Origin: Haloactinopolyspora alba
GTDB lineage: Bacteria > Actinomycetota > Actinomycetes > Jiangellales > Jiangellaceae
Assembly: GCF_003014555.1 (NCBI RefSeq)
Contig: NZ_PYGE01000013.1
Location: 1 to 64,000, forward strand
Length of the DNA: 64,000 bases
Direction: 5' to 3'
The translations under genes were made by a program, and so were the position numbers. Shown here piece after piece: positions 5,678 to 48,734 of this stretch. The notes beneath the pieces are model-generated. The model did not search any database. It saw nothing but the letters and a program-made list of their open reading frames with translations, and had not been told where the DNA came from. How positions within the stretch are numbered: position 1 is the first letter of the stretch; each line of letters starts with the position of its first letter.

Positions 5678-5690
5678 CGACGCGGGCCGG

Positions 5691-8349: not shown

Positions 8350-8366
8350 GTAACCTGACAGCACTG

Positions 8367-8397: not shown

Positions 8398-8425
8398 TGG
8401 TGTCTGCGGGTCCATGTCTCCAGTG

Positions 8426-9343: not shown

Positions 9344-9464
9344 GCGGTACACACTGGTCCGAACCACATCGGTCGAACTTTCCGAAAGGGGTTGATGAGC
9401 AGGCACGGACGTGTTTCTGTGATGACGTGGTCAAGCAATCGCCACATCGCTTCGAGCTGAAGAG

Positions 9465-10750: not shown

Positions 10751-10966
10751 CCGCATGCCTCCTTCGCTCCCTCGTGGCCGGTACCGGCCCGGCGTCGCCC
10801 CTCACCGTGCCGACCCATCTGATCCGACGCCTACGATTACTGAGAGTGAGCCACGGTGTCAAGATGCTCTCGGATGATCACACAGGGCGACACTCTGACA
10901 CGACCGGCGTGGATGATCAAGTTCTTTCGCCGCGAACGTCGACGCACCGCACCTCCGGCCGACCCG

Positions 10967-11296
10967 TCAGCGCGTCTCGTCGGCCACCCAGGACAGGTAC
11001 GCCACGCTGCCGCCGGTGACGGGCACCGTCACGACCTCGGGCACGTCGTAGCCGTGGTTCGCCTCCAGATGCTCGATCAGCGCCTGTGCGCGGTCGCCCG
11101 CGGTCTTGACCTCGACCCGCCACTCCCGCTCGGTCTGCACGGCGCCGTCCCACCGGAAGACGCTGGTGATCGGGCCGACGATCTGCGCACAGGCACCGAG
11201 CCCGGCCTCCACCGCCCCGGAGGCCAGCGCCAGCGCGGACTCCTCGCTGTCGGTCGTGGACATGATGATGACGTGCTCCGCGGACATGCCGGACAT
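10967..11296 (-). CDS. cutA: CutA1-like protein
   Basis: A 109-residue protein of the normal length for CutA1, a small trimeric ferredoxin-like-fold protein linked to divalent-cation tolerance. Typical segments are ASGAVEAGLGACAQIVGPI, SVFRWDGAVQTEREWRVEVKT and HGYDVPEVVTVPV. It is transcribed towards the STAS gene with a 210-base gap in which no terminator or gene was recognised. The ATG at 11296 begins MSGMSAEHVIIM; the second ATG is an alternative. Confidence 0.9.
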   Translation of the reverse strand: MSGMSAEHVIIMSTTDSEESALALASGAVEAGLGACAQIVGPITSVFRWDGAVQTEREWRVEVKTAGDRAQALIEHLEANHGYDVPEVVTVPVTGGSVAYLSWVADETR

Positions 11297-11331
11297 CGTA
11301 TCGACGGAGCGGGAACCCGGGGCCGAAGGCC

Positions 11332-11487
11332 GTGATCACCGTGGTGCAGTCCCTGATCATCTTCGGGGTGGGTCTGCTGATAGGGGCGCGATTCGACGGC
11401 GGCGTCCCCGGCGTGCTGGTCGTGCTGCCGCCGCGACCGTGCTGGCTGGCCACCCGTGCGTTCCGCCTGTACCAGCGCTCGACCTAG
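11332..11487 (+). pseudogene. Possible remnant of an ABC-2 type permease
   Basis: An open frame from GTG 11332 to TAG 11487 encodes about 51 residues including VQSLIIFGVGLLIGARFDGG, then VPGVLVVL. This resembles a transmembrane stretch of DrrB-like ABC-2 permeases, where GARF-x-GG-x-x-GxLVxL is common. After that the sequence becomes unrelated and Pro/Arg-rich. There is no partner ATPase and no upstream part, so it looks like a decayed fragment; a genuine one-helix mini-protein is the alternative. Confidence 0.35.
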
Positions 11488-11492
11488 AAGGA

Positions 11493-11533
11493 GGTTGTGG
11501 CCCCGGCCTCCGCAGCGAGCCGGGGCCACAACC
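11493..11533. terminator. Strong hairpin downstream of the ECF sigma operon
   Basis: GGTTGTGGCCCCGGC (11493-11507) pairs perfectly with GCCGGGGCCACAACC (11519-11533) around 11 bases. It lies about 170 bases beyond the end of the proline-repeat gene on the minus strand and 6 bases after the permease remnant, so it could stop transcription from either side. No further gene was seen in 11534-11700. Confidence 0.6.
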
Positions 11534-11700
11534 CGTTTGCCCGACGGGACTGGGGTCGCATCCGTCGGGCGATCAGGGGTCGCACCGATCGGGACCGGTA
11601 CGACCGTGCTTCATCGCACGGTGTTGTCGAGCCTTCACATACGTCATCGCTACGCCCCCGCACAGGGGTACGCCCTCTGCGAGGGAATCTGCGTCCGGTG

Positions 11701-12867
11701 TCATCTCCCCCGCGCGTTCGCCGACGTTCCGGGACGTTCCGACGTGTCGTCGCCGCTGCCGCCGTCACCGGAGCCGCCGTTCCCGGCACCGGAGCCGCCG
11801 TCGCCGTGTCCGGAGCCGTCGCGCTGCGACGCCGAGCCGTCGGAGTTCCCGTTGTCGGACGTGTCGCCGGGCTCACCGCGTTCCGTGGAATCGCCGGGTT
11901 TCGACTCCGGTGCACCTTCCGGCGCGGAGTCCCGGTTGCCCGAATCCGGATTGCCCTGATCCGGCTGGTTCCGGTCCGGGTTTCCCTCGTTGCCCTCGCC
12001 GGGGCTCCCGTCGGGTTGGCGCTCCTCGGCATTGCTGCCGGGATCCTCCGGCTGCCCGGGCGGCGTGTCCGGGCGGTTCGGCGTGTCCGGCTCCTCCGGC
12101 GGTGTCTCGGGGCGGTTCGGCGTGTCCGGCTCCTCCGGCGGCGTTTCCGGACGGTTCGGCGTGTCCGGCTCCCTCGGCGGCGTTTCCGGACGGTTCGGCG
12201 TGTCCGGCTCCCTCGGCGGCGTTTCCGGACGGTCCGGCGTGTCCGGCTCCCTCGGCGGCGTTTCCGGACGGTCCGGCGTGTCGGGACGCCCGACCCCGGG
12301 CGGGAACGTTCCCGGGTTCCGTGCCGGCGTGTCGGTCGTGTCGTCGGACGTCTCGTGGTCCGGCTCGCTGCCATGACCCGACAGCGGCGACGCGTCCGCG
12401 GGCGACGGCGTCTCGGTCTCCTCGACGTCGGCGACCTCGCCCGACCGGTCGCGAAAGGTGATCGGTGAGACGGACTCGATGAACGACTCCACCGATCGCT
12501 GCGCGCCGTCCGGCAGGGCTCCGGCGGCGGCGACACCGGTGAAACCGGTGAACGCAGCCACCACGCCGGTCACGACCCTGGTCCGGGGCCGCCACGCCGA
12601 CACCCGGGGCCACCAGCGCCGGCGGCCTTGATCGGCGCCGGAGCCGGCAGGCTGTATCCCCGCGAAGTCGCCCGTCGCCATGCGCTCGGCGAGCTCCGGC
12701 GTCGGGTCGGGGCAGCCGGTGCCTTCCGAACGGATCTCGCGCACGGCGCCGGACAGCGGCTCGAGCCCGGGCGGCACCGCCTCGCCGCTGAGCAGAGTCT
12801 CTACCGCGGTATCGTCGTCGAGCCGGTGTCGTCGCATCTCATGCACGTCATCGCTGGAACTCATCAC
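11701..12867 (-). CDS. Membrane-anchored Pro/Asp-rich partner of the ECF sigma factor (putative anti-sigma factor)
   Basis: A 388-residue protein. Residues ~1-95 are soluble, one hydrophobic segment follows at ~98-118, and the rest is a long extracellular low-complexity tail with six 13-residue repeats (DTPxRPETPPxEP) and then Gly/Asp/Asn-rich sequence. Its start overlaps the stop of the ECF sigma gene by ATGA, so the two are translationally coupled. This layout suggests an anti-sigma factor or wall-spanning sensor, but no zinc-binding HxxxCxxC motif is visible. Function is inferred from context. Confidence 0.6.
   Translation of the reverse strand: MMSSSDDVHEMRRHRLDDDTAVETLLSGEAVPPGLEPLSGAVREIRSEGTGCPDPTPELAERMATGDFAGIQPAGSGADQGRRRWWPRVSAWRPRTRVVTGVVAAFTGFTGVAAAGALPDGAQRSVESFIESVSPITFRDRSGEVADVEETETPSPADASPLSGHGSEPDHETSDDTTDTPARNPGTFPPGVGRPDTPDRPETPPREPDTPDRPETPPREPDTPNRPETPPREPDTPNRPETPPEEPDTPNRPETPPEEPDTPNRPDTPPGQPEDPGSNAEERQPDGSPGEGNEGNPDRNQPDQGNPDSGNRDSAPEGAPESKPGDSTERGEPGDTSDNGNSDGSASQRDGSGHGDGGSGAGNGGSGDGGSGDDTSERPGTSANARGR
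12062..12290. repeat. 39-bp tandem repeats coding for DTPxRPETPPxEP
   Basis: About six in-frame copies of a 39-bp unit. The last three or four are nearly identical (GTTTCCGGACGGTYCGGCGT core) and the earlier ones more diverged, as expected from recent expansion. They encode a rigid proline-rich spacer in the tail of the sigma-factor partner. The copy number may vary between strains. Confidence 0.85.
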
Positions 12868-13469
12868 AGGGTTACGCCTTCCCCCGACAGTTTCTTGCGC
12901 AACGCCGTGAGCCCGCGTCGTTGCAACGCTTTCACCGCGCCCTTCGATCGGCCGAGCACCTCGGCGACCTGCTCGACGGTGAGGTCAGCCACGATCCGCA
13001 ACAGCAGCACCTCGCGCTGGTCCGCGGACAGCTCGGCGCACAGTTCGGCCACGCGGCGCTGTCCGAGCGCCGCCATCGCGTCCTGTTCCGCGTCGCCGGC
13101 CGGCCGGTCCAGGACCTCCGGTTCCCCGGTGGGCGTCGACGGCTTGCGAGTGCGGCGGCGGCGCTCGTCGACCAGGCGCCGATGCGCGATGGTGAACACC
13201 CACGACCGGAACTGCTGTTCGGTGCCGGAGAACGAGCTCAGGCCGGCGAACACGCCGAGGAACACGTCACTGTTGAGGTCCTCCGGCTCGGCCGCGCCCT
13301 GCAACCGCAGGTAGCCGGCGACGGCCGGAGCGAGATCACGATAAAGACGCTCGAAAGCCCACGGCTCGCCAGAACGTGCCGCGTCGAGAATGCCGTCGAA
13401 GTCTTCTCCGATGGACAGACTGCCTCCCGGGTACACCGCCTCGGACACAGTGCGTTCAAACTCGGACAT
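12864..13469 (-). CDS. ECF (group 4) sigma factor
   Basis: A 201-residue sigma factor with region 2 (AFERLYRDLAPAVAGYL, EDLNSDVFLGVFAGL, FRSWVFTIAHRRLVDERRRR) and region 4 (LSADQREVLLLRIVADLTVEQVAEVLGRSKGAVKALQRRGL). It directs RNA polymerase to a small stress regulon. It overlaps the following membrane-protein gene by 4 bases (ATGA), the usual arrangement for a sigma/anti-sigma pair. The ATG at 13469 begins MSEFERTVSEAV. It is divergent from the YjbQ gene, with 107 bases between them. Confidence 0.9.
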   Translation of the reverse strand: MSEFERTVSEAVYPGGSLSIGEDFDGILDAARSGEPWAFERLYRDLAPAVAGYLRLQGAAEPEDLNSDVFLGVFAGLSSFSGTEQQFRSWVFTIAHRRLVDERRRRTRKPSTPTGEPEVLDRPAGDAEQDAMAALGQRRVAELCAELSADQREVLLLRIVADLTVEQVAEVLGRSKGAVKALQRRGLTALRKKLSGEGVTL

Positions 13470-13576
13470 CGTGCCGGTGCGGATGAGGGTACGGCCATCC
13501 GGGTCGCCCGTGCGAGAGCGGCGGGCGGCGCGCCAGGCGTTCGACGCGTCCGCGTGCCGGCGGACAGAATGGTCCC

Positions 13577-13978
13577 GTGGATTCCGAGACCTTCGACCTC
13601 TCGACCGGCAGCGAACTGGTGACCGAGGTGACCGGCCAGGTGCGTGAGTTCTGCCGCGGCCGCGGCGACGGGCTGTGCCACGTGTTCGTCCCGCACGCGA
13701 CCGCCGGGGTGGCTCTGATCGAGACGGGCTCGGGGACCGAGCCCGACCTCGCCGCGGCGGTCGACCGGATGCTCCCTCCCGAGGACATCTATCGGCACCG
13801 CCACGGCAGCACCGGGCACGGCCGCGATCACGTGCTGCCGGCCTTCATCGCGCCGTCGCTGAGCCTCCCGGTGATCGACGGCGAGCCCGCCCTGGGCACG
13901 TGGCAGAGCGTGGTCGTCGTCGACTCCAACGTCGACAACCGCCACCGCCGGCTCCGGCTCTCGTTCCTACCGGGCTGA
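13577..13978 (+). CDS. YjbQ/UPF0047 family protein
   Basis: A 133-residue protein matching the full length of the YjbQ family. Conserved stretches include VFVPHATAGVALIETGSG, RHGSTGHGRDHVLPAFIAPSLSLPV and GTWQSVVVVDSN. Members can show weak thiamine-phosphate synthase activity, but the physiological role is not settled. GTG 13577 is the start. The stop directly abuts the stop of the TetR gene on the opposite strand, with no spacer, so both transcripts must end in the neighbouring gene. Confidence 0.85.
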   Translation: MDSETFDLSTGSELVTEVTGQVREFCRGRGDGLCHVFVPHATAGVALIETGSGTEPDLAAAVDRMLPPEDIYRHRHGSTGHGRDHVLPAFIAPSLSLPVIDGEPALGTWQSVVVVDSNVDNRHRRLRLSFLPG

Positions 13979-14602
13979 TCAGCCGGAGCCGGGCGACCGC
14001 GGCCGCACGATCGACAGCGCACGATCCAGTAGTTCGGCGCGGTCGGCGGACCCGCCCGAGCGGAGCCATTCCCGCTGCGCGGCTTCCAGCGCCGACGCAG
14101 CCGCGGCCGTGAGCAGGTCCGCAGTGAGAGCGTCGAGGCGCTCCGCGGCGCGATCACGTACCGCCGCACTGATCAGTTTACGTGCCTCCTCGCGTCGCTG
14201 CTGGTAACGGGCCTGTAATACGGGCGTCTGCTCGACCAGACGCAACTCGGCCACGCGCTGCACCGACCCGTCGATTCGGTCCTGCCACGCACGGACGACG
14301 TGGCACAGACTCTCCCATGTGTCCTCTTCCGGTGGGCGAGAACGCACGTCGTCGGCGACCTGCTCCCCCATGACCGCGACCGCCCCCAGTACGGCGTCCT
14401 CCTTCGACTCGAAGTACCGGAAGAAACTGCGCTTCGACATGCCAGCGGCGCGTGCTATGTCGTCCACGGTCGTCTGGTCGAACCCGTGTTCGGCGAACAT
14501 CGCCACCGCCAACTCGGACAGTTCGGAGCGCACTGCACGACGGCCACGCTCGCGCAGGGCGTTCCCGTGCTCAGGCATGTCGCTCAGTTTACTCTTCGAC
14601 AT
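13979..14602 (-). CDS. TetR-family regulator
   Basis: A 207-residue protein. The N-terminal helix-turn-helix is typical of TetR (LAVAMFAEHGFDQTTVDDIARAAGMSKRSFFRYFESKEDAV). The C-terminal helical ligand domain is not specific. It is divergent from a short-chain dehydrogenase gene with only 48 bases between the start codons, so it very probably represses that gene and itself. No clean operator palindrome was recognised in the gap. Confidence 0.85.
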   Translation of the reverse strand: MSKSKLSDMPEHGNALRERGRRAVRSELSELAVAMFAEHGFDQTTVDDIARAAGMSKRSFFRYFESKEDAVLGAVAVMGEQVADDVRSRPPEEDTWESLCHVVRAWQDRIDGSVQRVAELRLVEQTPVLQARYQQRREEARKLISAAVRDRAAERLDALTADLLTAAAASALEAAQREWLRSGGSADRAELLDRALSIVRPRSPGSG

Positions 14603-14650
14603 CGTATGCTCGGACTGGCATCAAGTGACAGTAAGAGCAGGAGGTGTCGC

Positions 14651-15526
14651 ATGCACGACGAGACGGTTCTCATCACCGGCGGTACGGGTGGTATCGGCAG
14701 GCAGACGGCGCGGGGGCTCGCCGATCTCGGCAAGCACGTCGTGCTGGTGGGGAGGGACCCCGAACGTGCCGCCCGTGCTGCCGGCCAATTGCGTCACGAA
14801 TCCGGCACCGACCGGGTGGACGCCCTCACCGCCGACGTCAGCCGGCAGTCGGATCTGCGCCGCCTCACCGATCAGGTCACCGACCGATACGGAAAGCTGG
14901 ATGCACTGATCAACAACGCCGGCAGCACCAAAGTCCAGCGCGAGCTGACCGAAGACCGCGTCGAGACGGTCTTCGCGACCAATGTCGTCGCCCCGTTCCT
15001 CCTGACCCACCTACTCCTACCGGCATTGCGAGCGGCGCCGAGACCACGGGTCGTCAACATCACCGGCGGCGTCCCGCGGGGTCACATCAACGTGGAGAAC
15101 CTTCAAGGTCAGCGTTCCTACGCCGGACTGTCGTTCTACAACCAGACCAAACTCGCACTCATGGCCATGAGCATCACGCTCGCCGGACGGCTCGGCACCA
15201 ACGGCGTCGCGGTGAACGTCGCCTACCCGGGGCACGCTTCCACGGCGATGAACAAGGGCCTGCCGATCAGCACCTACCCACTCGCGGCACGGCCGATCGT
15301 TCCGCTGCTGAAACTGCTCAGCCCGCTCGTGCTCGGCAACCGCGCCGCCGTGCGAGCATCCCGGTCGAGCATCCGGCTCGTGTCCGATCCCGGCCTCGAC
15401 GGCATCACCGGCGTGTACATCGACCGGAAAGCGCGTCCCGCCCGGTGGCCGGAAGCCGTGCTGGACGCAGGTACCCGTCGAGCCGTGTGGCAGGAGTGCG
15501 AGAGAGTCACGAATCGCTCCTGGTGA
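14651..15526 (+). CDS. Short-chain dehydrogenase/reductase
   Basis: A 291-residue SDR with nucleotide motif TGGTGGIG near residue 10, NNAG at about residue 90 and the catalytic YxxxK as YNQTK. Length and sequence resemble the retinol-dehydrogenase/WW-domain-oxidoreductase-like branch common in actinomycetes. AGGAGG lies 6 bases before the ATG at 14651. It probably oxidises or reduces a hydrophobic alcohol or ketone. It is divergent from the TetR gene, which likely controls it. Confidence 0.85.
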   Translation: MHDETVLITGGTGGIGRQTARGLADLGKHVVLVGRDPERAARAAGQLRHESGTDRVDALTADVSRQSDLRRLTDQVTDRYGKLDALINNAGSTKVQRELTEDRVETVFATNVVAPFLLTHLLLPALRAAPRPRVVNITGGVPRGHINVENLQGQRSYAGLSFYNQTKLALMAMSITLAGRLGTNGVAVNVAYPGHASTAMNKGLPISTYPLAARPIVPLLKLLSPLVLGNRAAVRASRSSIRLVSDPGLDGITGVYIDRKARPARWPEAVLDAGTRRAVWQECERVTNRSW

Positions 15527-15598
15527 TGAGCGGGAAGTCGCGACGTTGGAAACCGGGACTTCGGGGTACGGAACGGCTGACACCCGGAGGTGAGCGCC

Positions 15599-15865
15599 AT
15601 GCAGGCAGTCGAGTGGACAGTCGACGTCTCGTTCCAGGAGGACCCGGACCGCACCGACGCCATCGTCACGCTGACGTTGGCGGACGGGACTGCGCTGCGC
15701 GCGCAGGGACACGCCCGGCGGAACCCGGACGACCCGGCACGGCCACGGGTCGGCGAGGAGATCGCCGCCGCGCGCGCCATGTCCGACCTGGTTCACCAGT
15801 TGATGGAACGGGCCGCGACCGAGATCGAGGACGTCACGCACCAGCCCGCACACCTGAGCGTGTGA
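15599..15865 (+). CDS. DUF1876 (dsRBD-like fold) protein
   Basis: An 88-residue protein: VEWTVDVSFQEDPDRTDAIV, ADGTALRAQGHARRNPDD, then a helical end with ALSDLVHQL-type packing (AMSDLVHQLMERA). This is the small DUF1876 family found almost only in actinomycetes, with a dsRBD-like alpha-beta fold and no known function. ATG 15599 is chosen because GGAGG lies 8 bases before it; the GTG at 15590 overlaps that site. Confidence 0.85.
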   Translation: MQAVEWTVDVSFQEDPDRTDAIVTLTLADGTALRAQGHARRNPDDPARPRVGEEIAAARAMSDLVHQLMERAATEIEDVTHQPAHLSV

Positions 15866-15947
15866 ACATCCTTCGCGACGGGTGATGCGTCCGCCGCGAC
15901 ACGGCGTTGCGCAGCAGAGGCGGCACAAAGCGGTCAGGACGTGCATC

Positions 15948-17459
15948 ATGTGGTCGATGAGTTACGAACGTATAACCCGTGCGGTCGCCCTCAGCGGGGC
16001 CGCCCTGATGCTGACGGCGACCGCGTGCCAGAGTGGCGAGGAGCCGTCCAGCGCCAGGCCGTCCGAGACGCCCACACCGGGTGCCGGCTGGGAGTTCACG
16101 ACCCACCCGAACCTGACACCCCCACTCGTCGACGTCTCGCAGACGCGGGCCCCGGCGACCGAGGCGCCGGCCAGGCCCGCCGACGAGGACCTGTTCATGG
16201 TCGCGCCCAAGGGCGAGGAATCACCGATGACCGCCCTGATGATCGCCGACTCCGAGGGCGATCCGGTGTGGGTCCATCCGGTGGAAGGGAACAGCTACAA
16301 CTTCCGTACCCAGGAGTACAACGGCGAGCAGGTCCTCACCTGGTGGCGCGGCGACAACAGCACGCAGGGCCACGGCAAGGGCGAGTTCGTCATCATGAAC
16401 AACTCGTACGAGGTGATCACCACCGTCACCACCACGGGCACCGCCCGGGCGGACTTCCACGAGATCACCATCACCGACGACGGCACGGCACTGCTGGCCA
16501 GCTACCCCACCGTCGGCGGACAGGATCTCACCGAGTTCGACGGCCCGAAGGACGGCTACGTTCTCGACGGCGTCATCCAGGAGGTCGACATCGCCACCGG
16601 CGAGGTGCTGTTCGAGTGGAGCGCGCTCGACCACGTCGACCTCAGCGAGACCGAGAACTCCATGGAGGACCGCGACGAGCAGGACGGCAGCGAGGAGAAG
16701 CCCTTCGACTTCTTCCACATCAACTCCGTCACCGAGGACGGCGACTCGCTGCTCGTCTCGGCACGCAACACGCACGCGATCTACCGCATCGACCGCGAGA
16801 CCGGCGAGCTCGACTGGACACTCGGCGGCAACGCGAGCGACTTCAAGATGACCGGCGACTCGTACTTCGCGTGGCAGCACGACGCCCAGCGCCAGGAGGA
16901 CGGCACCATCACCCTGTTCGACAACCAGAGCTCGCCGCCCATCGGTGATCAGTCGCGCGGGCTGCGGCTCGACGTCGACACCGAGAACATGACGGCGAGC
17001 GTGGTGACGGAGTACCTGCCACCGGACGGGCGGCTGGCGGCGAGCCAGGGCAACCTGCAGGTCCGCGACAACGGCAACGTGGTCATCGGCTGGGGCGCCG
17101 AACCGTTCTACTCGGAGTACACCGCCGAGGGTGAGCTGCTCTACGACGCAAAGCTCAGCGGCGGCGACAACTACCGCGCCTACCGGCTCCCGTGGGAGGG
17201 TGACCCGACCCGGCCGCCGAGGCTCGAAGTCGAGGACCGCATGGCCTACGTCAGCTGGAACGGCGCGACCGAGGTGGCCTCGTGGCGGTTCCTGGGGGGC
17301 CCGGACGCCGAGGACGCCACCGAGGTGGCCACGGTGCCGCGAGAGGGGTTCGAGACGACGATGCCGGTTCCGGACCAGCCGTACGTCGCTGCCGAGGCTC
17401 TCGACGCCGACGGCAACGTCCTCGACACCGTGAGCGTGCAGACGGACTCGGACTCCTGA
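15948..17459 (+). CDS. Arylsulfotransferase-like lipoprotein (beta-propeller)
   Basis: About 503 residues. A lipoprotein signal (ERITRAVALSGAALMLTATAC) places the modified Cys in the lipobox LTATAC. The body has repeated GxVLFEW, NSVTEDGDSLLVSARNT and GxLDWTLGG segments, as in the arylsulfotransferase (ASST) beta-propeller family. These actinomycete proteins are often only annotated as arylsulfotransferase; whether sulfate is transferred is unknown. The ATG at 15948 follows AGGAC at 7 bases; longer frames lack a signal at the right distance. Confidence 0.75.
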   Translation: MWSMSYERITRAVALSGAALMLTATACQSGEEPSSARPSETPTPGAGWEFTTHPNLTPPLVDVSQTRAPATEAPARPADEDLFMVAPKGEESPMTALMIADSEGDPVWVHPVEGNSYNFRTQEYNGEQVLTWWRGDNSTQGHGKGEFVIMNNSYEVITTVTTTGTARADFHEITITDDGTALLASYPTVGGQDLTEFDGPKDGYVLDGVIQEVDIATGEVLFEWSALDHVDLSETENSMEDRDEQDGSEEKPFDFFHINSVTEDGDSLLVSARNTHAIYRIDRETGELDWTLGGNASDFKMTGDSYFAWQHDAQRQEDGTITLFDNQSSPPIGDQSRGLRLDVDTENMTASVVTEYLPPDGRLAASQGNLQVRDNGNVVIGWGAEPFYSEYTAEGELLYDAKLSGGDNYRAYRLPWEGDPTRPPRLEVEDRMAYVSWNGATEVASWRFLGGPDAEDATEVATVPREGFETTMPVPDQPYVAAEALDADGNVLDTVSVQTDSDS

Positions 17460-38670: not shown

Positions 38671-40410
38671 ATGGACGTCCGCAGCACCATCCGGAACACG
38701 CTCGCCCTGGCTGCGGCCGGGCTCACGCTCACCACCGCCGGCCTCGCCGCCGCGCCCGGCATGCCCGCCGCCGCGACACCGGCGTCCGACGCACCCGCAC
38801 GACCGGCCGCTCAGGTACAGGCCCCGGTGCCGGAGCTGAACTGGAAGCCGTGCGAAGAAGGGCTGGAAGCGTTCCTGTGCACGACGGCCGAGGTTCCCAC
38901 CGACTACGACCGTCCGGACGGCCCGACCACCACGATCGCGCTGACGAAGCTGCCCGCCACCGACCCGGACGCACGCATCGGCACGTTGTTCACGAACCCG
39001 GGCGGACCTGGCGGGTCGGGCGTCGATTTCGTCCACACCCGCGGCCGGACCGCCTACACCGACGACGTCCGCGCCCACTTCGACATCCTCGGTTTCGATC
39101 CCCGGGCGGTGCACCGCTCCGATCCCGCGACCTGCTACCGGACACCTGAGCAGGAGCAGCGTGAGCTGGCACGACACCCCGCGTTCCCGGTCACCGCCGA
39201 GGAGGAGAACGACTACCTCGGGTTGAACGCACGGCTCGGAGCCGACTGCCGCCGCACCTCTCCCGAGCGGTTCGCGCACTCGTCGACGGCCAACGTGGCG
39301 CGCGACATGGACCTGCTGCGCCAAGCGGTCGGCGACGAGAAGCTCACCTACATGGGGTACTCCTACGGCACCCTGCTCGGCGCGACGTACGCACGGCTGT
39401 TCCCCGGCCGGGTCCGCGCACTCGCCCTGGACGGCACCGTCGTCCCGGAGGACTACACCGGCCGCCCGGGCGAGGAGACCTCGTCCGTCGGCGCGCGGAT
39501 GCGTCAGGGCCACGGAGCCGCCGAAACGTTCGACGAGTTTCTTCGGCTCTGTGCCGAGGCCGGCCCACGACGCTGCGCGCTGGCAGCGTTGGGTGAGCCG
39601 CGAACGGTGGTCGAGCGGACCTTCGACCGGCTGAAGGACGAGTCCGTGCGTATCGTCACGCCGAACGGCACCGAGCTCGTCGTCGACTACCCGACGGCCG
39701 TCGCACTGACATTCAGCGGCCTGTACGACCCCGCCGCCTGGACCGGACTTGCCGGCCTGCTCGCACAGTTGGCCACCGCGGAACCTCAGATGACCGGTGC
39801 GGCTGCCGCGCTGGTGGAGCAGGTCGTGCCGCAACGTGACCGGCCTCCCCGGCGCGGGGCCGACTACGCGTCCGTCGGCGGCTCGCTGGCCTCGTTGTGC
39901 GTCGACGGTGGCACCACCGGCGAGCCGTTCGCGTACCCGGAGATGGTCGACGACGTCGCCGCCGACGCTGCGCACTTCGGCCGGTACCGGGCGTGGGTCG
40001 GCGTGCAGTGCGAGTTCCTGCGCGTGACCGACGAGGACGCCTACGTCGGCCCGTGGGACCAGCAGGTCGACGAGCCGGTGCTGGTCATCGGCACCCGGTA
40101 CGACCCCGCCACGCCGTACGACGGCACCAGCCGGTACGCGGCGCACTTCCCGGATGCGCGGACGATGACGGTCGAGGGGTACGGGCACACCGTCCTGGGC
40201 AAGAGCCGCTGCGCGGACCGGGTGATCAGCAACTACCTGGTCCGGCTGGACGCGCCCGCCGACGGCTCTACCTGCGGCCAGGACGTGCCACCGTTCCAGG
40301 CTCCCGGCGCCCGCGCGCGGCGACCGCTGACCGTTCCGCCCCTGCCGCCCTTGATCATCAACGGTATGCCACAACATGGTGTGGTCTTATTTCACACGCC
40401 TAGTAGCTGA
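38671..40410 (+). CDS. Secreted alpha/beta-hydrolase peptidase (TAP/SlpD type), 3' end rewritten by an insertion
   Basis: A 579-residue exported serine peptidase. A signal peptide (TLALAAAGLTLTTAGLAAAPG) is followed by TLFTNPGGPGGSG (oxyanion region), the nucleophile elbow MGYSYGTLLGATYA, a late Asp (GTRYDPATP) and His (VEGYGHTVLG). This is the tripeptidyl aminopeptidase-like family. The family body ends near CGQDVPPF; the following tail crosses the left junction of the integrated element, so the last 8 residues come from the element. Without it the frame would end GMPQHGVGNR. The enzyme itself is probably intact. Confidence 0.85.
   Translation: MDVRSTIRNTLALAAAGLTLTTAGLAAAPGMPAAATPASDAPARPAAQVQAPVPELNWKPCEEGLEAFLCTTAEVPTDYDRPDGPTTTIALTKLPATDPDARIGTLFTNPGGPGGSGVDFVHTRGRTAYTDDVRAHFDILGFDPRAVHRSDPATCYRTPEQEQRELARHPAFPVTAEEENDYLGLNARLGADCRRTSPERFAHSSTANVARDMDLLRQAVGDEKLTYMGYSYGTLLGATYARLFPGRVRALALDGTVVPEDYTGRPGEETSSVGARMRQGHGAAETFDEFLRLCAEAGPRRCALAALGEPRTVVERTFDRLKDESVRIVTPNGTELVVDYPTAVALTFSGLYDPAAWTGLAGLLAQLATAEPQMTGAAAALVEQVVPQRDRPPRRGADYASVGGSLASLCVDGGTTGEPFAYPEMVDDVAADAAHFGRYRAWVGVQCEFLRVTDEDAYVGPWDQQVDEPVLVIGTRYDPATPYDGTSRYAAHFPDARTMTVEGYGHTVLGKSRCADRVISNYLVRLDAPADGSTCGQDVPPFQAPGARARRPLTVPPLPPLIINGMPQHGVVLFHTPSS
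40348..40384. other. Left attachment site (attL) of the integrated element
   Basis: CCCTTGATCATCAACG (40348-40363) is the left arm of the split host hairpin, and ATGGTGTGG (40376-40384) is the sequence shared with the right end. It lies inside the 3' end of the peptidase gene. The exact crossover inside the shared 9 bases cannot be fixed. Confidence 0.7.
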
Positions 40411-40470: not shown

Positions 40471-40641
40471 CTACTCCCCGTCGTCGCGCGGAGCCTCCAC
40501 GGCCTGGCGATAGTGCTCAAGCGCCGTCATCAACAAACCGGAAATGGGCATGCGGTGTTGCTTGGCGTGCGCCATGGCCCAATCCCAGAGCGGCACGTCT
40601 TCCTCGCGGACGTAAATCGTCTTCTGCGGCACCTTAGGCAT
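40471..40641 (-). CDS. Ribbon-helix-helix-like small regulator
   Basis: A 56-residue protein, starting MPKVPQKTIYVREED and continuing with a helix-turn-helix-like stretch (MPISGLLMTALEHYRQAV). The basic strand followed by two helices is what ribbon-helix-helix DNA-binding proteins show, and it is commonly seen in small actinomycete plasmids and phages. It lies divergent to the small-gene unit at 40768. No ribosome site is visible: a TATAGT box lies 6 to 11 bases before the ATG, so the mRNA may be leaderless. Function inferred. Confidence 0.6.
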   Translation of the reverse strand: MPKVPQKTIYVREEDVPLWDWAMAHAKQHRMPISGLLMTALEHYRQAVEAPRDDGE

Positions 40642-40767: not shown

Positions 40768-40947
40768 GTGCCCACCAACGTACCGACACCTGCCCCTGAC
40801 AGCCCGCCAGACAGGCCCACAACGGCAGTCGCCATTGAAGCCGCCTTCCAAGCTCTGGACGACGCATCGGACGCGCTGGTGGAGCTTCGCCGGAATCTGC
40901 GCGTCGTACGTGACCTCGTGACCGCTCAGGGTGGTGATGAGTCGTGA
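40768..40947 (+). CDS. Small helical protein, unknown
   Basis: A 59-residue protein from GTG 40768, preceded by GAGGAGG at about 7 bases. A Pro-rich N-terminus (MPTNVPTPAPDSPPDRP) is followed by one amphipathic helix (AIEAAFQALDDASDALVELR). It resembles the short open frames common in actinomycete plasmids. Its stop overlaps the next start as GTGA. No function can be assigned. Confidence 0.55.
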   Translation: MPTNVPTPAPDSPPDRPTTAVAIEAAFQALDDASDALVELRRNLRVVRDLVTAQGGDES

Positions 40948-41108
40948 CGCGCTCGGACGCGCTTGCCCTGCTTGTTGGGCTGCTGCTCGCCATGGCCGTG
41001 ATCGTGGTTGTCGGCGTCGTCACCGACACCGGCCAGCCAGCGGAGGACGATCCCGCTTGGGACTGCCGCATCCACGGCAACGAGGTCTGCGGCGGGGGTG
41101 GTCGGTGA
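40944..41108 (+). CDS. Single-span small membrane protein
   Basis: A 54-residue protein from GTG 40944, overlapping the preceding stop by 4 bases. One transmembrane segment (ALALLVGLLLAMAVIVVVGV) is followed by an outward tail with two Cys (WDCRIHGNEVC), which could form a disulfide. Its stop overlaps the next start as TGATG. The tight coupling supports a real gene. It could be a membrane anchor or a superinfection-type protein, but this is unknown. Confidence 0.55.
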   Translation: MTRSDALALLVGLLLAMAVIVVVGVVTDTGQPAEDDPAWDCRIHGNEVCGGGGR

Positions 41109-41368
41109 TGATCCTCGCCGTTGTCCTCCGTGCCACCGTCGATGTTCCGGCGCATTGCTGGATCATCGAGGCTGAGCAAGAACCGGCCACGCTGCCCGAC
41201 ATCGCCAAGCGGACCGATCACACCGTGCTCGCCGTGCGGCCGGTGGCTGACGTTGATGCCGCCGACGCTGCCCTAGCCGTGGCTGGCCTCATGCGCACCG
41301 CCGAATGGCGCAATCTTGCCGACGGTGCCGACATCGCACCGATTACCGCTATGTCTGGGGTGAATTAA
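41108..41368 (+). CDS. Small protein, unknown
   Basis: An 86-residue protein from ATG 41108 (TGATG overlap with the preceding gene): MILAVVLRATVDVPAHCWII, then RTDHTVLAVRPVADVDAADA. It looks like a compact alpha-beta fold with no signal or membrane segment. Proteins of this kind occur in small actinomycete elements. The next gene begins 5 bases after its stop. Confidence 0.5.
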   Translation: MILAVVLRATVDVPAHCWIIEAEQEPATLPDIAKRTDHTVLAVRPVADVDAADAALAVAGLMRTAEWRNLADGADIAPITAMSGVN

Positions 41369-41901: not shown

Positions 41902-42138
41902 CTAGGCGGCAGTGTCGTCGTCCGTCGATTCCTGCCGCTTGTGACGGCCCATATTCGAGAACACGCCTTGATCCCGCACGTTCTCACCGTCCGGCCCGTG
42001 CAACCGCGCACCTGGCTGGTCAATCGCCCTGCCATAGTCGTTCATCGGGTGACCGTCACTGGATTTCGCCGTACGCGGTTCGCCCAGCACGTCTTGCAAG
42101 GCTTCCGCCTGGCTCTGTTCGTGTTCCTGCTCACTCAT
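41902..42138 (-). CDS. Small hydrophilic protein after the protease
   Basis: A 78-residue, strongly polar protein: MSEQEHEQSQAEALQDVLGE, GHPMNDYGRAIDQPGARLHG, ending STDDDTAA. GGAGGT lies 8 bases before the ATG, and the start overlaps the protease stop as TAATG. It may assist the protease or act in assembly. No family recognised. Confidence 0.6.
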   Translation of the reverse strand: MSEQEHEQSQAEALQDVLGEPRTAKSSDGHPMNDYGRAIDQPGARLHGPDGENVRDQGVFSNMGRHKRQESTDDDTAA

Positions 42139-43079
42139 TAGCGTGTACCTCCAACTTGATTCGTGAATCCACGACCGTACGCGCGGGCACGAGCGTTCTC
42201 GATAATCTCACTCCGCTTATACGGTTCGTCCCAATACTGTTTCCGCTCTTCAACCGTAAGCTCGTTAGCAATCTGACGGTCCGACGTATCAAGCAACGCC
42301 TGGCCCCAGCCGTTTTGAATCAGTTCCCGTTCGGCAGCTTCAGTCTTCTCCCGTTCTTCCTTCCGCCGTTGCGCTTCCCGCTGTTCGGCTCGGTGTTGCC
42401 TGATCTTCGCCTCTTCGTCTTCCTTATTGAAGCCCAACGGCGACATCTCGGACTGCCGCCGAATCGTGACTTCCGTTTCCCAATGGGGCCGCTTGGCCGG
42501 TTTGCGCTTCAACGTGCCGAACGACAACGCCCCGCCAGGACGGGCACCGCTAGGACTGGACCTAGGTGAAGCGAACGACGGTTCAGTAAGCGCGAACGTG
42601 TACACCTGGCCAGAATCCTCGAACCGGGCCGAGTTAACCCTGGCTTCCTGATACACCGGCATCCCGGTTAGCGTGACTTCCTGAAGCGTGACCGATTTCG
42701 CAATCTGGAACTCGGAATCAACCGGGTCAGTGACGATGGTGTCTCGGCCAGGTTTGACCTCGATACCGACGCTGAACCCGTCGAGCCTGCCGTTCCGGAC
42801 TTGCTCAAGCGCACGATCACCTTCCGGCGTGTTGTCGATCCGAAACATGCCATACGCGCCGAACTCGGTGTTCTTGATGCTCAGCATCTCACCGATCCGC
42901 CGCTCCTTGTCATGATCAAGCACCAGCGGAATCGAGCCGGACCATTTCAGGCTGTCCGGCTCAAACAGCCACCATTGCGCATCCCTGCCACTGGTGCGCG
43001 CCTTCCGTCCCCAAGGAACGATCAGACCCGATACGGTGCGAGCCTTCTGATTGGCCCGGAACTCGGTTTTGATAGTCAT
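42138..43079 (-). CDS. HK97-type prohead protease with scaffold-like tail
   Basis: A 313-residue protein. Residues ~1-150 match the phage prohead-protease fold: ARTVSGLIVPWG, LVLDHDKERRIGEM (His56 likely catalytic), GRLDGFSVGIEV and KSVTLQEVTLTGMPVYQEA. Where these enzymes usually have a nucleophilic Ser, this one appears to have Thr136. Residues ~190-313 are highly charged and helical (EAKIRQHRAEQREAQRRKEE), like a scaffold. In phages it trims the capsid and scaffold during maturation, but no capsid gene is present here. Starts by ATGA overlap with the upstream gene. Confidence 0.8.
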   Translation of the reverse strand: MTIKTEFRANQKARTVSGLIVPWGRKARTSGRDAQWWLFEPDSLKWSGSIPLVLDHDKERRIGEMLSIKNTEFGAYGMFRIDNTPEGDRALEQVRNGRLDGFSVGIEVKPGRDTIVTDPVDSEFQIAKSVTLQEVTLTGMPVYQEARVNSARFEDSGQVYTFALTEPSFASPRSSPSGARPGGALSFGTLKRKPAKRPHWETEVTIRRQSEMSPLGFNKEDEEAKIRQHRAEQREAQRRKEEREKTEAAERELIQNGWGQALLDTSDRQIANELTVEERKQYWDEPYKRSEIIENARARAYGRGFTNQVGGTR

Positions 43080-43255
43080 GCTTTCGCCTTCCTTTGACGC
43101 GCCAATACCTGATCCCGGTGTTTGGCGTAATACTCCCGCGACATTGCCGCATCACACTCCCTACATTTCGACGCCAGCCCGTCTGTGCGGTAATCGTCCG
43201 GCGCAAAATCGGCCACTGGCAGATTCTCGCTGCATGCTGGACATTTCTTCGTCAT
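43076..43255 (-). CDS. Zinc-ribbon mini-protein
   Basis: A 59-residue protein with two Cys pairs (KKCPACSENLP and SKCRECDAAM) and a basic C-terminal helix (SREYYAKHRDQVLARQRK). This zinc ribbon with a YY-x-x-H-R tail is often found alone or ahead of HNH nucleases in actinophages; the nuclease part is absent. AGGCGGA lies just before ATG 43255. The stop overlaps the protease start by ATGA, so the two are coupled. Confidence 0.65.
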   Translation of the reverse strand: MTKKCPACSENLPVADFAPDDYRTDGLASKCRECDAAMSREYYAKHRDQVLARQRKAKA

Positions 43256-43285
43256 AATTCCGCCTTTCTTCAACGAATCGGGCAT

Positions 43286-43812
43286 TTCTTTGGGCTATTT
43301 TGAATGATTCCGCCTTTCTGTCGACAATCTTGAAGCGCTCGTAAGCTTCTCACCAGTAAAAACGCGCTTCCGGAGAAAGAGAACAAGGGGCAATCACCGC
43401 CCCGACTCGAAAGGTCAAGGGAAAAAACGACCCCCGAATCCCCGTCGGTGCATTCTTGCATTCTCCATTCCTGTTCGCATTCCTCGAATCGGTCAACCGG
43501 AATGCGCCGACCGAACCATTCCCTTTGTCCATCTTTGCCTCATTCGTTTGTGCATTCTCATTCGGCTCGGTGCTCGGTGCGGCGGAGTGGGCGGGGGTCG
43601 GCCGGAGATGCCCGCCAGGGTGGTTGGCTGGCGTGGCCGGGGGTCCGGCCAGACGGGGAGGGGGCAAGCCAGCCAGGCGGGGCGCGTGTGTGGCTCTGTG
43701 TGGGGCGTGTGCGGCCTGCCACGGGTAGGGGTGGCCCGTGTGGGCCGCCCCACCCGGGGGTGGCGGTCCAGCCAGGCTGGCGTGTGCTCGCACGGCGGGC
43801 GGGGGGCATGCT
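43286..43812. other. Non-coding region of the element with strong strand bias
   Basis: No convincing gene. The first part (43257-43321) has two copies of ATTCCGCCTTTCT, 52 bases apart, the near one being the ribosome site of the zinc-ribbon gene. About 43450-43490 there is a cluster of CATTC words. From ~43575 to ~43810 the plus strand is extremely G-rich, with repeated CCAGCCAGG, GGGG and GTGTG words, giving proline-rich nonsense frames on the other strand. It could be a control or packaging region. Confidence 0.5.
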
Positions 43813-44022
43813 TCAACCCCCGGCCCGTTCTGCGGCTTGCTGGTCCGCCAACCGGTTCGCGGCTGCGGCTACAGCAAGCAATGCGTGCACAATGGCGCGA
43901 TCCCGGTTGTCGTCGGGAATCGGCAGAATCTCTTCGCCACCCATGGTGGGTGGTGTGATCAGCTTGCGCGCATTCTCGTAATGCTCGTGATACACGTCCT
44001 CGTTCACTTTGTCGTCAAACAT
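43813..44022 (-). CDS. Small acidic protein, unknown
   Basis: A 69-residue protein: MFDDKVNEDVYHEHYENARK, PTMGGEEILPIPDDNRDRA, then an Ala-rich helix ending DQQAAERAGG. GGAGCG lies upstream of ATG 44022. The start overlaps the 3' end of the preceding gene by 8 bases, a sign of coupling. No family is recognised; a longer frame reaching to 44217 would overlap the neighbour and is less likely. Confidence 0.55.
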   Translation of the reverse strand: MFDDKVNEDVYHEHYENARKLITPPTMGGEEILPIPDDNRDRAIVHALLAVAAAANRLADQQAAERAGG

Positions 44023-44344
44023 TGGCGCGCGCTCCATTCCCGCTTTGCGTGGCTGGATTGTCGGTGTGCTTGGAGCATGGCCGGTAGTTACGGCATGGCC
44101 TACCAGTGGTCGACGTTGGCGCGCCGCAGAGCATGCCCAAGCGCTCAAGGTATTCGCGTGGCAAGCGACCTTCACGCTCGTGTATCGCGCCGTGGTGGCA
44201 ACCGTTGACCGCACCATGCGCGCAATCGGGGCACTGGCATTTCACCAACCACGGCCAGGCGTTGCCGTCGGCATCGATGACATGTGCAATCCAGTATTCG
44301 TTATCCAGCTCCGCCGCTGTGTTCCAATCTGGCTTTGCGCTCAT
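44015..44344 (-). CDS. Cys/His-rich putative zinc-binding protein
   Basis: A 109-residue protein with many metal ligands: CQCPDCAHGAVNGCHH and CGAPTSTTGRPCRNYRPCSKH. The second resembles the C-x-T-x-x-G-x-PC-x-x-x-x-C zinc motif seen in small phage and plasmid proteins. It may bind DNA or mediate protein contacts. It follows the initiator-like gene on the same strand after a gap of about 100 bases with a hairpin. No named family. Confidence 0.55.
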   Translation of the reverse strand: MSAKPDWNTAAELDNEYWIAHVIDADGNAWPWLVKCQCPDCAHGAVNGCHHGAIHEREGRLPREYLERLGMLCGAPTSTTGRPCRNYRPCSKHTDNPATQSGNGARANV

Positions 44345-44445: not shown

Positions 44446-45207
44446 CTAATCGCCTTCATCGATAATCATTTCTTCAGGATCACTGGGTAACGTCTCCAAC
44501 GTCTGCCTTAGGAAACCGACCGGGTATTTAACCTGTTTGGGCTTTTGGTCCCGGTCAAGCTGCCAGCCCAGCATTTCGCCTTCCCAGCCACCGTCGGCTA
44601 GCCGCTTCAACTCTCGCCGAATATCCGGATGGTTGATGTTCGCTTCCGGCATCCACTTCTCCGCGAAAAAGGCAAGCATCTTTTCTTCTGCGGTTGGCTT
44701 CCCGAGTGCTTCGCCAGGCTTGCCGTTCTCGCGCGTGCGCGCCCCCGCGCGTGCGCGCCCCTCCTCCTCCGTCGGAGGTGGGAGGTCGTGATCCCTGCGG
44801 GGGTCACCGTCGGGGTCACCGTCAGGGTCACCGTCGTTGTGACGGTGGTCCCTGCGGGGGTCACCGTCAGCTTCCACGGTGGTCCCTGCGGGGGTCACCG
44901 TCACAACCGGGATCGTGAGCCGATAGACCACTGTCCGGCCACGTCCGCGCGTCCCGGTTTCGGTCAGCCAGCCGTGCGCGGCTAGAAACTCATCGACGCG
45001 GCGAACGGTTTCGCGTTTGTATCCGAGACGTTGCGCTATCGCCTGTTTCGAGATGAAACAGTTTGTGCCGTTCGGATTCGCATGCAGAACGCGCGCGACG
45101 GCTACGGAGAGAATGACGCCGTGTTGTGGCCCGTCTTCGATTTCCTCAAGCCAGCCGTATAGGTACCTCAGCCAGGTAACGACGATGGCCTTGTTCCTGC
45201 CGCTCAT
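44446..45207 (-). CDS. Replication-initiator-like helix-turn-helix protein
   Basis: A 253-residue protein. Residues ~1-100 form a winged helix-turn-helix (CFISKQAIAQRLGYKRETVRRVDEFLAAHGWL), as in phage O-type and plasmid initiators. Residues ~110-150 hold an Asp/Gly/Arg linker (DGDPDGDPDGDPRRDH) encoded by DNA repeats. The C-terminal part (EEKMLAFFAEKWMPEANI ... YPVGFLRQTLE) resembles DnaD/primosome-like ends. Iterons inside the gene suggest it starts replication at its own coding sequence. The start overlaps the upstream zinc-ribbon stop by ATGA. Confidence 0.65.
   Translation of the reverse strand: MSGRNKAIVVTWLRYLYGWLEEIEDGPQHGVILSVAVARVLHANPNGTNCFISKQAIAQRLGYKRETVRRVDEFLAAHGWLTETGTRGRGRTVVYRLTIPVVTVTPAGTTVEADGDPRRDHRHNDGDPDGDPDGDPRRDHDLPPPTEEEGRARAGARTRENGKPGEALGKPTAEEKMLAFFAEKWMPEANINHPDIRRELKRLADGGWEGEMLGWQLDRDQKPKQVKYPVGFLRQTLETLPSDPEEMIIDEGD
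44792..44902. repeat. Iterons inside the initiator-like gene (candidate replication origin)
   Basis: Five GGGTCACCGTC units lie at about 44801, 44813, 44825, 44858 and 44892; three of them are extended to TCCCTGCGGGGGTCACCGTC. The first three are spaced 12 bases apart and an inverted unit (GTGACGGT) sits between the groups. Iterons within an initiator gene are how lambda-type origins are built. Confidence 0.6.
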
Positions 45208-45359
45208 CGATAATCGCCCGGCCTTCTTCCAGCGGCGTATTTATCGAAATGCGCCGTGGTCTTTTTCCGGGGATCACAGTTGGCGCAATAGGCGTACTGG
45301 CGGCACGGTGCGCCACACTTCCGACACTGGCGGGCGAATTTGGCTTGCTTGCGAGACAT
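45204..45359 (-). CDS. Zinc-ribbon mini-protein upstream of the initiator
   Basis: A 51-residue basic protein: MSRKQAKFARQCRKCGAPCR, then QYAYCANCDPRKKTT. The four to five Cys (CxxC...C...CxxC) form a likely zinc ribbon. The stop overlaps the initiator start by ATGA. It is probably a DNA-binding helper, based only on charge and context. Confidence 0.55.
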   Translation of the reverse strand: MSRKQAKFARQCRKCGAPCRQYAYCANCDPRKKTTAHFDKYAAGRRPGDYR

Positions 45360-45453
45360 CACGCGCCACCCGCGCAACGGTGCGCTAGGGTTGGTGGTAT
45401 TGCTCCCCCGTTGGTCCGCCGTCTCCTCCGAAGCGGCGGGCCTTCCTTTGCCC

Positions 45454-45768
45454 TCATGCGGCCGAATCCGTGTTCGTCTCGGCCGGGGGTAGCAGGGCGC
45501 GCAACCGCTCGATGTTCTCGGGGGTCAGTTCGCCAGCACGGTTCACGACGCGTTCAACCCATGCATCGAGCGACTGACCCTTCTTACCGATGCTCTGCAT
45601 GTGTTCGCGCTTGAGCTGTTGTGCACGCCGTGCGCGTTCCTGAGGACTCAGCCGCCCGTCTGGGTCGGCTTCCTGCTCGAAACGCTGCATGAATGCGTCA
45701 CGCGCCGGTTGGGTGTTCTTCGCGCGGCGCTCACGGGTATTCGGGGCATTCCCAGCCAACGGGCACAC
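45454..45768 (-). CDS. Small helical protein of the initiator operon
   Basis: A 104-residue charged protein: NTRERRAKNTQPARDAFMQR, then ARRAQQLKREHMQSIGKKGQ, then a C-terminal helix DAWVERVVNRAGELTPENIE. The motif RERRAKNTQPARDAF is familiar from actinomycete plasmid and prophage small proteins with no known role. The start is probably the GTG at 45768 or a nearby one; no clear ribosome site is seen. It is the first gene of the minus-strand operon. Confidence 0.6.
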   Translation of the reverse strand: MCPLAGNAPNTRERRAKNTQPARDAFMQRFEQEADPDGRLSPQERARRAQQLKREHMQSIGKKGQSLDAWVERVVNRAGELTPENIERLRALLPPAETNTDSAA

Positions 45769-47559: not shown

Positions 47560-47589
47560 ATGGTGTGGGAAATCGTTGATGATCAAGGG
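47560..47589. other. Right attachment site (attR) of the integrated element
   Basis: ATGGTGTGG (47560-47568) repeats the left-end sequence. CGTTGATGATCAAGGG (47574-47589) is the exact reverse complement of the arm at 40348-40363. It lies 38 bases before the first lipoprotein gene. Confidence 0.7.
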
Positions 47590-47627
47590 AAAGCAGCGGC
47601 GCGTTCGGCAGTAGGGAGGCGAACCGT

Positions 47628-48131
47628 ATGCGGGTACGGCGTGATGCCGTCGTCGTCAGCATCGCCGTCTTCGCCGGCCTCGGCCTGACCGCCTGCACCA
47701 GCGAACCGAGCCTGAACGAGATCGCGCCCCGGTTCGAGCAGGACGCCAACGAGGTGTTCGAAGAACTCGCCGACGACTACAGCGCCGATCCGGAGGCCGC
47801 CGAGATCACGAACGACGGCAGCGAGAACGTCCCGTGCGACGACGGCGCCCGACGCGAGTTCGTGGGGACCTTCCCCATGATCGAAGGTGACCCCGACAAC
47901 ACCCTGGATGGCTTCACCAACAACGTCATCACTGCAATATCGATCGATCACGACTACGAGATGGTCAGCGAGGGCGGCGGCAACTACACAGAAGACGGCT
48001 TGATGAGCGGGACCGAACGCACTGATTACGGCACCAACGAAGACGAGACGATCACGTTCGAGGTACACGCCGTCGCCGAACCTCCCCGACAGGTCACGTT
48101 TACCGGTGAAACCGCCTGCGCGGACACTTGA
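47628..48131 (+). CDS. Lipoprotein, tandem paralogue A
   Basis: A 167-residue lipoprotein. VVVSIAVFAGLGLTACTSEP gives a signal with lipobox LTAC. The mature part begins SLNEIAPRFEQDANEVFEEL and holds a pair of Cys (ENVPCDDGARREF ... ETACADT) likely to form a disulfide. No family is recognised. GGGAGG lies 9 bases before the ATG. It starts right beyond the element's right end. The next gene is a paralogue. Confidence 0.75.
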   Translation: MRVRRDAVVVSIAVFAGLGLTACTSEPSLNEIAPRFEQDANEVFEELADDYSADPEAAEITNDGSENVPCDDGARREFVGTFPMIEGDPDNTLDGFTNNVITAISIDHDYEMVSEGGGNYTEDGLMSGTERTDYGTNEDETITFEVHAVAEPPRQVTFTGETACADT

Positions 48132-48254
48132 TCGTTCCGGCATCCCATTCGTCACCGAAGATCCGGAGCAACACCGCAGTCGCGTGATCGGTTACTGTTC
48201 CGCTGGGACGTGATCCAGGAGCGCCGCTCGTCGGGCGGTACGGAGGTGGAGAGT

Positions 48255-48734
48255 ATGCGGCCGCGCCATGGTGCCGTCGTCGTCAGCATCGCCGTCGTCG
48301 CCGGCCTCGGCCTGACCGCCTGCACCAGCGAACCGAGCCTGAACGAGATCGGCCCCAAGTTCGAACAGGACGCCAACGAAGTGTTCGAAGAACTCATCGA
48401 CAGCTACAGCGCGAACACCGACGCCGCCGAGATCACCAACGACGGCAGCGAGAACATCCCCTGCGACGACGGCGCCCGACGCGAGTTCGATGCGACCTTC
48501 CCCATGATGGAAGGCGACCCGGAAAGCAACCTAGAGATCTTCACGCGAGCAGTCGTCGTGAGCTTCGAGAACAATCATGGTTACACCATGGTTGGCGACG
48601 ACTACCACTCCGGTACCGAACGCACCTACCGGGCCACGAACGAGGACGAGACGATCACGTTCGAGGTACACGCCACCGGTGAGCCCAACAGCGAGGTCAC
48701 CTTCACCGGCAAGACAACCTGCGCGAGCACCTGA
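48255..48734 (+). CDS. Lipoprotein, tandem paralogue B
   Basis: A 159-residue lipoprotein closely related to the gene before it, nearly identical through the signal and first 40 mature residues (lipobox LTAC, then SLNEIGPKFEQDANEVFEEL) and diverging after residue ~80, with both Cys kept. GGAGG precedes ATG 48255. The two arose by tandem duplication. They converge on an ESX-substrate-like gene, and the stops are only 13 bases apart. Function unknown. Confidence 0.75.
   Translation: MRPRHGAVVVSIAVVAGLGLTACTSEPSLNEIGPKFEQDANEVFEELIDSYSANTDAAEITNDGSENIPCDDGARREFDATFPMMEGDPESNLEIFTRAVVVSFENNHGYTMVGDDYHSGTERTYRATNEDETITFEVHATGEPNSEVTFTGKTTCAST

Follow-up and report, generated by a model that had tools for sequence, protein, structure and literature searches.

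A phage-satellite-like element of Haloactinopolyspora alba with an HK97-type prohead protease as its sole recognized head gene

An integrated element and its protease operon

The window, that is, the whole stretch of 64,000 nucleotides analyzed here, corresponds to positions 1 to 64,000 of contig NZ_PYGE01000013.1 of Haloactinopolyspora alba (GCF_003014555.1), and coordinates refer to it unless another locus is named. It contains a 7.2-kb element bounded by attL (40348..40384) and attR (47560..47591), in which a gene for an S78 prohead protease forms part of a three-gene operon. The proteins of the element were scanned with Pfam and PHROG families, and TIGR01543 was also scored for the protease. 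For comparison, 393 genomes of the same class were surveyed (G labels, G000 being the H. alba genome itself), from which individual loci were fetched (L labels). The features are as follows.

40348..40384, no strand: attL, outer half-site CCCTTGATCATCAACG plus shared core ATGGTGTGG (40376-40384); inverted repeat, direct core, half-sites as in the sister elements
40471..40641, minus strand: small protein, possibly ribbon-helix-helix, 56 aa; 36% and 32% to proteins at the same end of the sister elements (tblastn/alignment), no Pfam family
40768..40947, plus strand: small protein p1, 59 aa; open reading frame with an AGGAGG-type ribosome site, no family
40944..41108, plus strand: small membrane protein p2, 54 aa, of an actinophage family (PHROG 1148, E 2e-7)
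41105..41368, plus strand: small protein p3, 87 aa, convergent to the main operon; open reading frame, no family
41902..42138, minus strand: acidic 78-aa protein, last gene of the protease operon; TAATG overlap, pI 4.7, no family
42138..43079, minus strand: S78 (HK97-type) prohead protease with a C-terminal tail; families, catalytic residues, predicted helices
43076..43285, minus strand: zinc-ribbon protein, 69 aa (probable start 43255, 59 aa); PHROG 2340/1035
43813..44037, minus strand: 74-aa protein, at the position of a 160-aa protein in the sister element of G017 (L087 12245-12727, 31% aligned)
44015..44344, minus strand: Cys/His-rich 109-aa protein; G364 has a homolog next to a related integrase gene (tblastn, 35% over 91 aa, E 2e-6)
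44446..45207, minus strand: winged-helix replication-initiator-like protein, 253 aa; PHROG 391 (replication initiation O-like), E 7e-8
45204..45377, minus strand: zinc-ribbon-like protein, 57 aa; CxxC motifs, no significant family
45454..45768, minus strand: 104-aa protein with a conserved C-terminal motif; same place in the sisters, aligned with L085, L087, L088 and L009
46043..47491, minus strand: large serine integrase, 482 aa; Pfam Resolvase E 4e-17, Recombinase E 5e-16, PHROG 95 E 2e-67
47560..47591, no strand: attR, shared core ATGGTGTGG (47560-47568) plus outer half-site CGTTGATGATCAAGGG; inverted repeat, direct core, half-sites as in the sister elements

Judged by its frame, its S78 domain and its catalytic residues, the protease gene is intact. 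The open reading frame (42138-43079, minus strand) encodes 313 aa from an ATG start without an internal stop. The product matches Pfam Peptidase_S78 at E 4e-12 (47 bits against a curated cut-off of 21), the head-protease families PHROG 2263 and 80, and TIGR01543 (proheadase_HK97) at E 2e-15 and 56.9 bits, slightly below the cut-off of 59. The family matches cover residues 43-150 of an S78 domain that comprises residues ~1-156. Within it, the residues H56, S103 and E134 do not vary among six aligned S78 proteins and likely constitute the catalytic triad. Both the S78 score and the presence of the catalytic His, Ser and acidic residue place the protein among the HK97-type prohead proteases.

The domain is followed by a charged C-terminal tail of about 155 residues (~165-313). 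In a single-sequence AlphaFold model of low confidence (mean pLDDT 51, 75-86 in the helices), the tail is predicted to be helical at residues 219-260 and 265-305. No homolog of the tail was detected in phages or class genomes, apart from an artefact in G097, where the protein is RecX and the apparent relationship, a chance coil match, was rejected. The start of the tail also weakly resembles the linker of a Corynebacterium freiburgense protease-capsid protein (28% over 243 aa, a span that takes in the protease and ends in 'SPLGL/F'), a similarity that disappears under low-complexity filtering and was set aside as too thin. A PDB search returned chance matches only. The first-pass annotation had called the tail scaffold-like, a designation that the low-confidence model and the negative homology searches leave conjectural. 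On the C. freiburgense plasmid phiCFREI45254, a 'hypothetical protein' (L015 7386-8843) aligns as an S78 protease-capsid fusion; this plasmid has terminase and portal genes and looks like a phage-plasmid.

The protease gene lies between the zinc-ribbon gene upstream and the acidic 78-aa gene downstream. The 69-aa zinc-ribbon frame terminates within the start codon of the protease, and the protease stop TAA shares bases with the ATG of the acidic-protein gene (TAATG). With overlaps of one or a few bases across the three genes, there is no space for a deletion scar between them. The zinc-ribbon protein (43076-43285) matches phage endonuclease-VII/HNH zinc-ribbon families (PHROG 2340/1035, E 7e-10 to 3e-9). 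Elsewhere in the element, p2 has a DNA match to mycobacteriophages Nigel/Saguaro and a counterpart in the sister element of G012, the 253-aa initiator-like protein matches Pfam HTH_36 below cut-off (E 7e-5), and the catalytic Ser18 of the integrase is conserved in an alignment with the sister integrases. Homologs of the small regulatory/membrane genes of the element also occur elsewhere in the H. alba genome (G000:C17:62984-63312 and C38:4062-4259; L125 and L126), apparently in other mobile elements or a prophage end.

The two ends of the element carry an inverted repeat of 30 nt (40348-40377 and 47560-47589, 87% complementary), inside which the 9-nt direct core ATGGTGTGG is found at both ends. 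Inverted-repeat half-sites with an internal direct core are the layout expected of serine-integrase attL/attR. The attL site lies in the last codons, at the 3' end, of an alpha/beta-hydrolase gene (38671-40410); as deduced from the joined att halves, integration replaced the last residues of the hydrolase, a predicted original HGVGNR* now reading HGVVLFHTPSS*. The same-genus genome G001 lacks the element: the hydrolase gene is followed there, after about 250 bp, by the next genes in collinear order; a duplicated lipoprotein gene occupies a different place, and attB is not preserved in its exact sequence. In the window, tandem paralogous putative lipoprotein genes (47628-48131 and 48210-48734, 86% DNA identity over 300 nt) adjoin attR; G001 has a single homologous place for lipoprotein genes, elsewhere in the cluster. 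Across the element, GC drops from ~71% to ~60-62%.

The Pfam and PHROG scans of the element proteins yielded no family of capsid, portal, terminase or tail proteins, and no packaging gene of its own was recognized. A tblastn search with 11 capsid proteins against all six frames of the element gave no credible capsid remnant. One match at 43611-43949 (E 0.011) was rejected: it contains a stop, overlaps the 74-aa gene in another frame, and is of a level reached by 1 of 60 shuffles. PADLOC defense models gave no meaningful match. The first-pass annotation, made from the sequence, had described an HK97-type prohead protease in an operon with a zinc-ribbon protein and a small acidic protein, which the family matches, the overlapping junctions and the pI of 4.7 bear out; its further statement that the ~7-kb element has no capsid, portal or terminase agrees with the negative scans and the six-frame search. 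Its simpler alternative, a remnant of a larger prophage, fares poorly. The element has both ends, an integrase with its catalytic serine and a compact overlapping operon, and broken genes, a missing end or a deletion scar, as a remnant might have, were not found. Given the att ends, the collinearity of G001 without the element and the drop in GC, it is unlikely that the element is a chance leftover of a large prophage. A discrete element with an integrase and att sites, lacking the genes for a full virion, corresponds to a phage satellite, and the assignment as a complete integrated satellite-like element is well supported.

Capsid-only sisters and the distribution of S78 loci

Among the closest integrases in the 393 class genomes are those of two elements from the same bacterial family, in G012 (59%) and G017 (39-40%):

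L085 (G012:C22) 4077-12853: sister element of G012, 8.8 kb, with an HK97 capsid and without a protease
L087 (G017:C7) 8969-16429: sister element of G017, 7.5 kb, with an HK97 capsid and without a protease

The capsid proteins comprise 540 aa in G012 (Pfam Phage_capsid E 4e-31) and 396 aa in G017 (E 7e-6), and an S78 protease, a portal and a terminase are absent from both elements. A half-site of the type (A/T)TGATCATC(A/G)A and its inverse bound the window element, L085 and L087; the half-sites are also written TTGATGATCA(A/T). The motif is missing from five other integrase relatives that were checked (L086, L088, L089, L090 and L091) and from L012, and occurs just once in L014. The three elements also have a common gene order: the integrase, a gene of ~66-112 aa with a conserved C-terminal motif, an initiator/HTH gene, small genes and one head gene, with the small, possibly ribbon-helix-helix gene at the far end and convergent partners also in L085. 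The head-gene slot holds the protease in the window element and the HK97 capsid in G012 and G017. The same half-sites and gene order indicate that elements with only the protease and elements with only the capsid are built alike and integrate with the same specificity.

The S78 domain was found at 41 loci in 35 of the 393 class genomes, and nearly all of these genes (38/41) have a capsid gene nearby: 34 have a Phage_capsid gene on the same strand within 3 kb, one more has it at 6.3 kb, and in three the capsid was recognized via PHROGs. The three loci without a capsid are the window element, an element of Mycobacterium colombiense E1334 (G187) and an orphan gene in G097 (L156 5127-5945), in which an HNH-like N-terminus is joined to the S78 domain with no phage genes in view. 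The M. colombiense element has the following position.

G187 contig C64, ~17.9-27.9 kb (L157 5616-6572, L162, L164): S78 element of M. colombiense E1334, no capsid

Its genes encode a tyrosine integrase, an HTH protein, RepA, an S78 protease (318 aa) that continues into a long C-terminal tail, a 77-aa protein and TerS. Its protease gives no BLASTP match to the window protease, and no tail or small protein common to the two elements is detectable. From these two cases and their sequences, the capsid-less state probably arose independently in each. The first-pass annotation had proposed to look across actinomycete genomes for repeated occurrence of the protease without a capsid gene in 7-kb elements, and had held that close relatives all carrying capsid and portal genes next to the protease would mark this copy as a deletion remnant. 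On the first point the outcome is divided, since a second, unrelated capsid-less S78 element exists in M. colombiense, but no second copy of the exact element or of the full-length protease was found in the 393 class genomes, GTDB contigs, viral contigs or phages. On the second, the nearest relatives by integrase and att sites are of the opposite kind, with a capsid and no protease, portal or terminase.

Among phages, the protease domain is closest to the protease-capsid fusions that small actinophages encode, with 30-34% identity over ~145 residues (the fusion of Arthrobacter phage Atraxa at 34%, that of Microbacterium phage Jerky at 30%). The genome G007, of the same bacterial family, has a full prophage whose protease-capsid fusion is 35-37% identical to the window protease. 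As the protease's own relatives are such fusions, loss of a capsid part somewhere in its ancestry is likely. By this comparison, the most likely ancestor of the window protein is a fused protease that lost its capsid part or exchanged it for the 155-residue tail.

Comparison with known satellites

As a phage satellite the window element is ordinary; it is unusual in its head gene. Like it, phiRv1 and the phiRv1-like prophage-like elements of mycobacteria are integrated and compact, at 9-12 kb, and combine an integrase and an S78 protease with small genes for replication and regulation; in the phiRv1-like L009, L010 and L012 no portal or large terminase was recognized, some having TerS. Unlike the window element, in which no capsid was found in any frame, they encode a capsid directly after the protease, as does the published phiBN42_1 (PMC3986857), and the long tail of the window protease is unrelated to them.

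The Ccm protein of SaPIbov5 is an HK97 capsid homolog that redirects and blocks the helper phi12 (PMC5052747). SaPIbov5 and other cos SaPIs with Ccm resemble the window element as satellites with one HK97-head-related gene and no full head module. However, Ccm is a capsid homolog without a protease of its own, whereas the window element has the protease instead, the reverse side of the same pair. The sister elements of G012 and G017 resemble the Ccm satellites more closely than the window element does and are possibly Ccm-like capsid-homolog satellites in actinomycetes.

The cf-PICIs, which encode capsid, portal, protease and terminases, and the Streptomyces satellites MulchRoom/MiniFlayer are likewise satellites with head-morphogenesis genes (PMC10690885). 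They differ in carrying a full set (capsid, portal and terminase, with the protease in cf-PICIs), whereas the window element has the protease only and none of capsid, portal or terminase was found in it. The small actinophages whose fusions come closest to the protease domain (Atraxa, Microbacterium phages such as Jerky, and Rhodococcus phage RRH1) differ in being complete phages, with the protease fused to the capsid beside terminase, portal and tail genes. The M. colombiense element is alike in having an S78 protease of similar length with a tail, a following ~77-aa gene, an integrase and RepA, and no capsid; it differs in its S78 lineage, its tyrosine integrase and its TerS gene.

Published means by which satellites act on helper heads are alternative scaffolds (Sid, CpmAB, TcaP), a capsid homolog (Ccm) and a complete head module (cf-PICIs). 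No satellite whose sole head gene is a prohead protease came up in a full-text literature search, which covered few subscription journals.

A proposed action of the protease on helper heads, and the alternatives

The pairing of protease-only and capsid-only sisters suggests that these elements live by tampering with the head assembly of another phage. The preferred reading, to which we assign a probability of about one half, is that of a compact phage satellite whose sole head gene encodes a protease that would work in trans on helper procapsids. Its identity as a satellite is well supported; the action on a helper is inferred. With its serine integrase the satellite would enter the 3' end of the hydrolase gene, where attB is an inverted repeat, and bring along its own replication-initiator-like gene and regulators. 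As a member of a small satellite family with one head-assembly gene in a fixed slot, it would leave everything else to be supplied by the helper phage. When a helper with a delta-domain (HK97-type) capsid protein builds procapsids, the satellite protease would enter them, perhaps via its helical tail, and cut the helper capsid/scaffold domain, differing from the helper's own protease in when or where it does so. The altered or spoiled helper heads would then be to the advantage of the satellite DNA. This sequence of events supposes expression of the gene, protease activity, a suitable helper, entry into the procapsid or targeting by the tail, and an effect on the helper. A more specific version, in which a helical targeting tail takes the S78 protease into the helper procapsid, where it reprograms or aborts maturation, and in which the family swaps protease and capsid in one slot, is tentative, possible rather than probable. 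If true, satellites would have one more means of taking control of head maturation, through a protease as the sole head gene. Three elements with one integration site and a swappable head slot would also offer a natural comparison of protease-only with capsid-only satellites, and a handle on what satellites must supply and what they can take.

The main rival, which we consider unlikely but in need of serious weighing, is that of a deletion derivative: a phiRv1-like satellite or a small phage with a protease-capsid fusion lost its capsid, and the protease persists without function. Such a history would fit the protease-capsid fusions that make up all close phage relatives of the domain, the protease-then-capsid order of phiRv1-like L009, L010, L012 and phiBN42_1, and the single known copy of the element. 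It sits less well with the state of the locus, where the protease frame, its catalytic residues and the gene overlaps are intact, as are the att sites, the integrase and the other genes, and where no capsid remnant is left in six frames. Moreover, the two nearest sisters lack the protease, rather than having both genes, and an unrelated capsid-less element exists in M. colombiense.

It is improbable that the S78 domain now serves a purpose other than head assembly, for example as a regulatory or defense protease of the element. The orphan HNH-like/S78 protein of G097 does stand outside any phage context, and sequence alone does not tie S78-like folds to capsids; however, the PADLOC search gave no defense match, and the gene occupies the capsid slot of the sisters, which points to head assembly. 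Least probable is a split head module, in which the protease serves the capsids of a co-resident or co-induced capsid-only sister, so that a head would be the joint product of two satellites. Elements of the capsid-only (G012, G017) and of the protease-only type do occur with the same att specificity in one bacterial family, but the two types were never seen in one genome, and the sole Phage_capsid gene of the H. alba genome belongs to a full prophage with a ClpP-type protease, not to a sister satellite.

For the preferred reading, a satellite protease acting in trans, this resident prophage is a possible candidate helper. It is the one tailed prophage of the H. alba genome, and its HK97 capsid is fused to the ClpP-type protease. 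Because it has this protease of its own, it is without obvious need of another head protease, and a protease-less capsid in the same genome was rejected as the partner of the satellite protease on account of the fusion. At the prophage locus (L123 11014-12534, G000 contig C9), a large-terminase-like gene lies on the opposite strand to the portal, the protease-capsid fusion and the tail genes.
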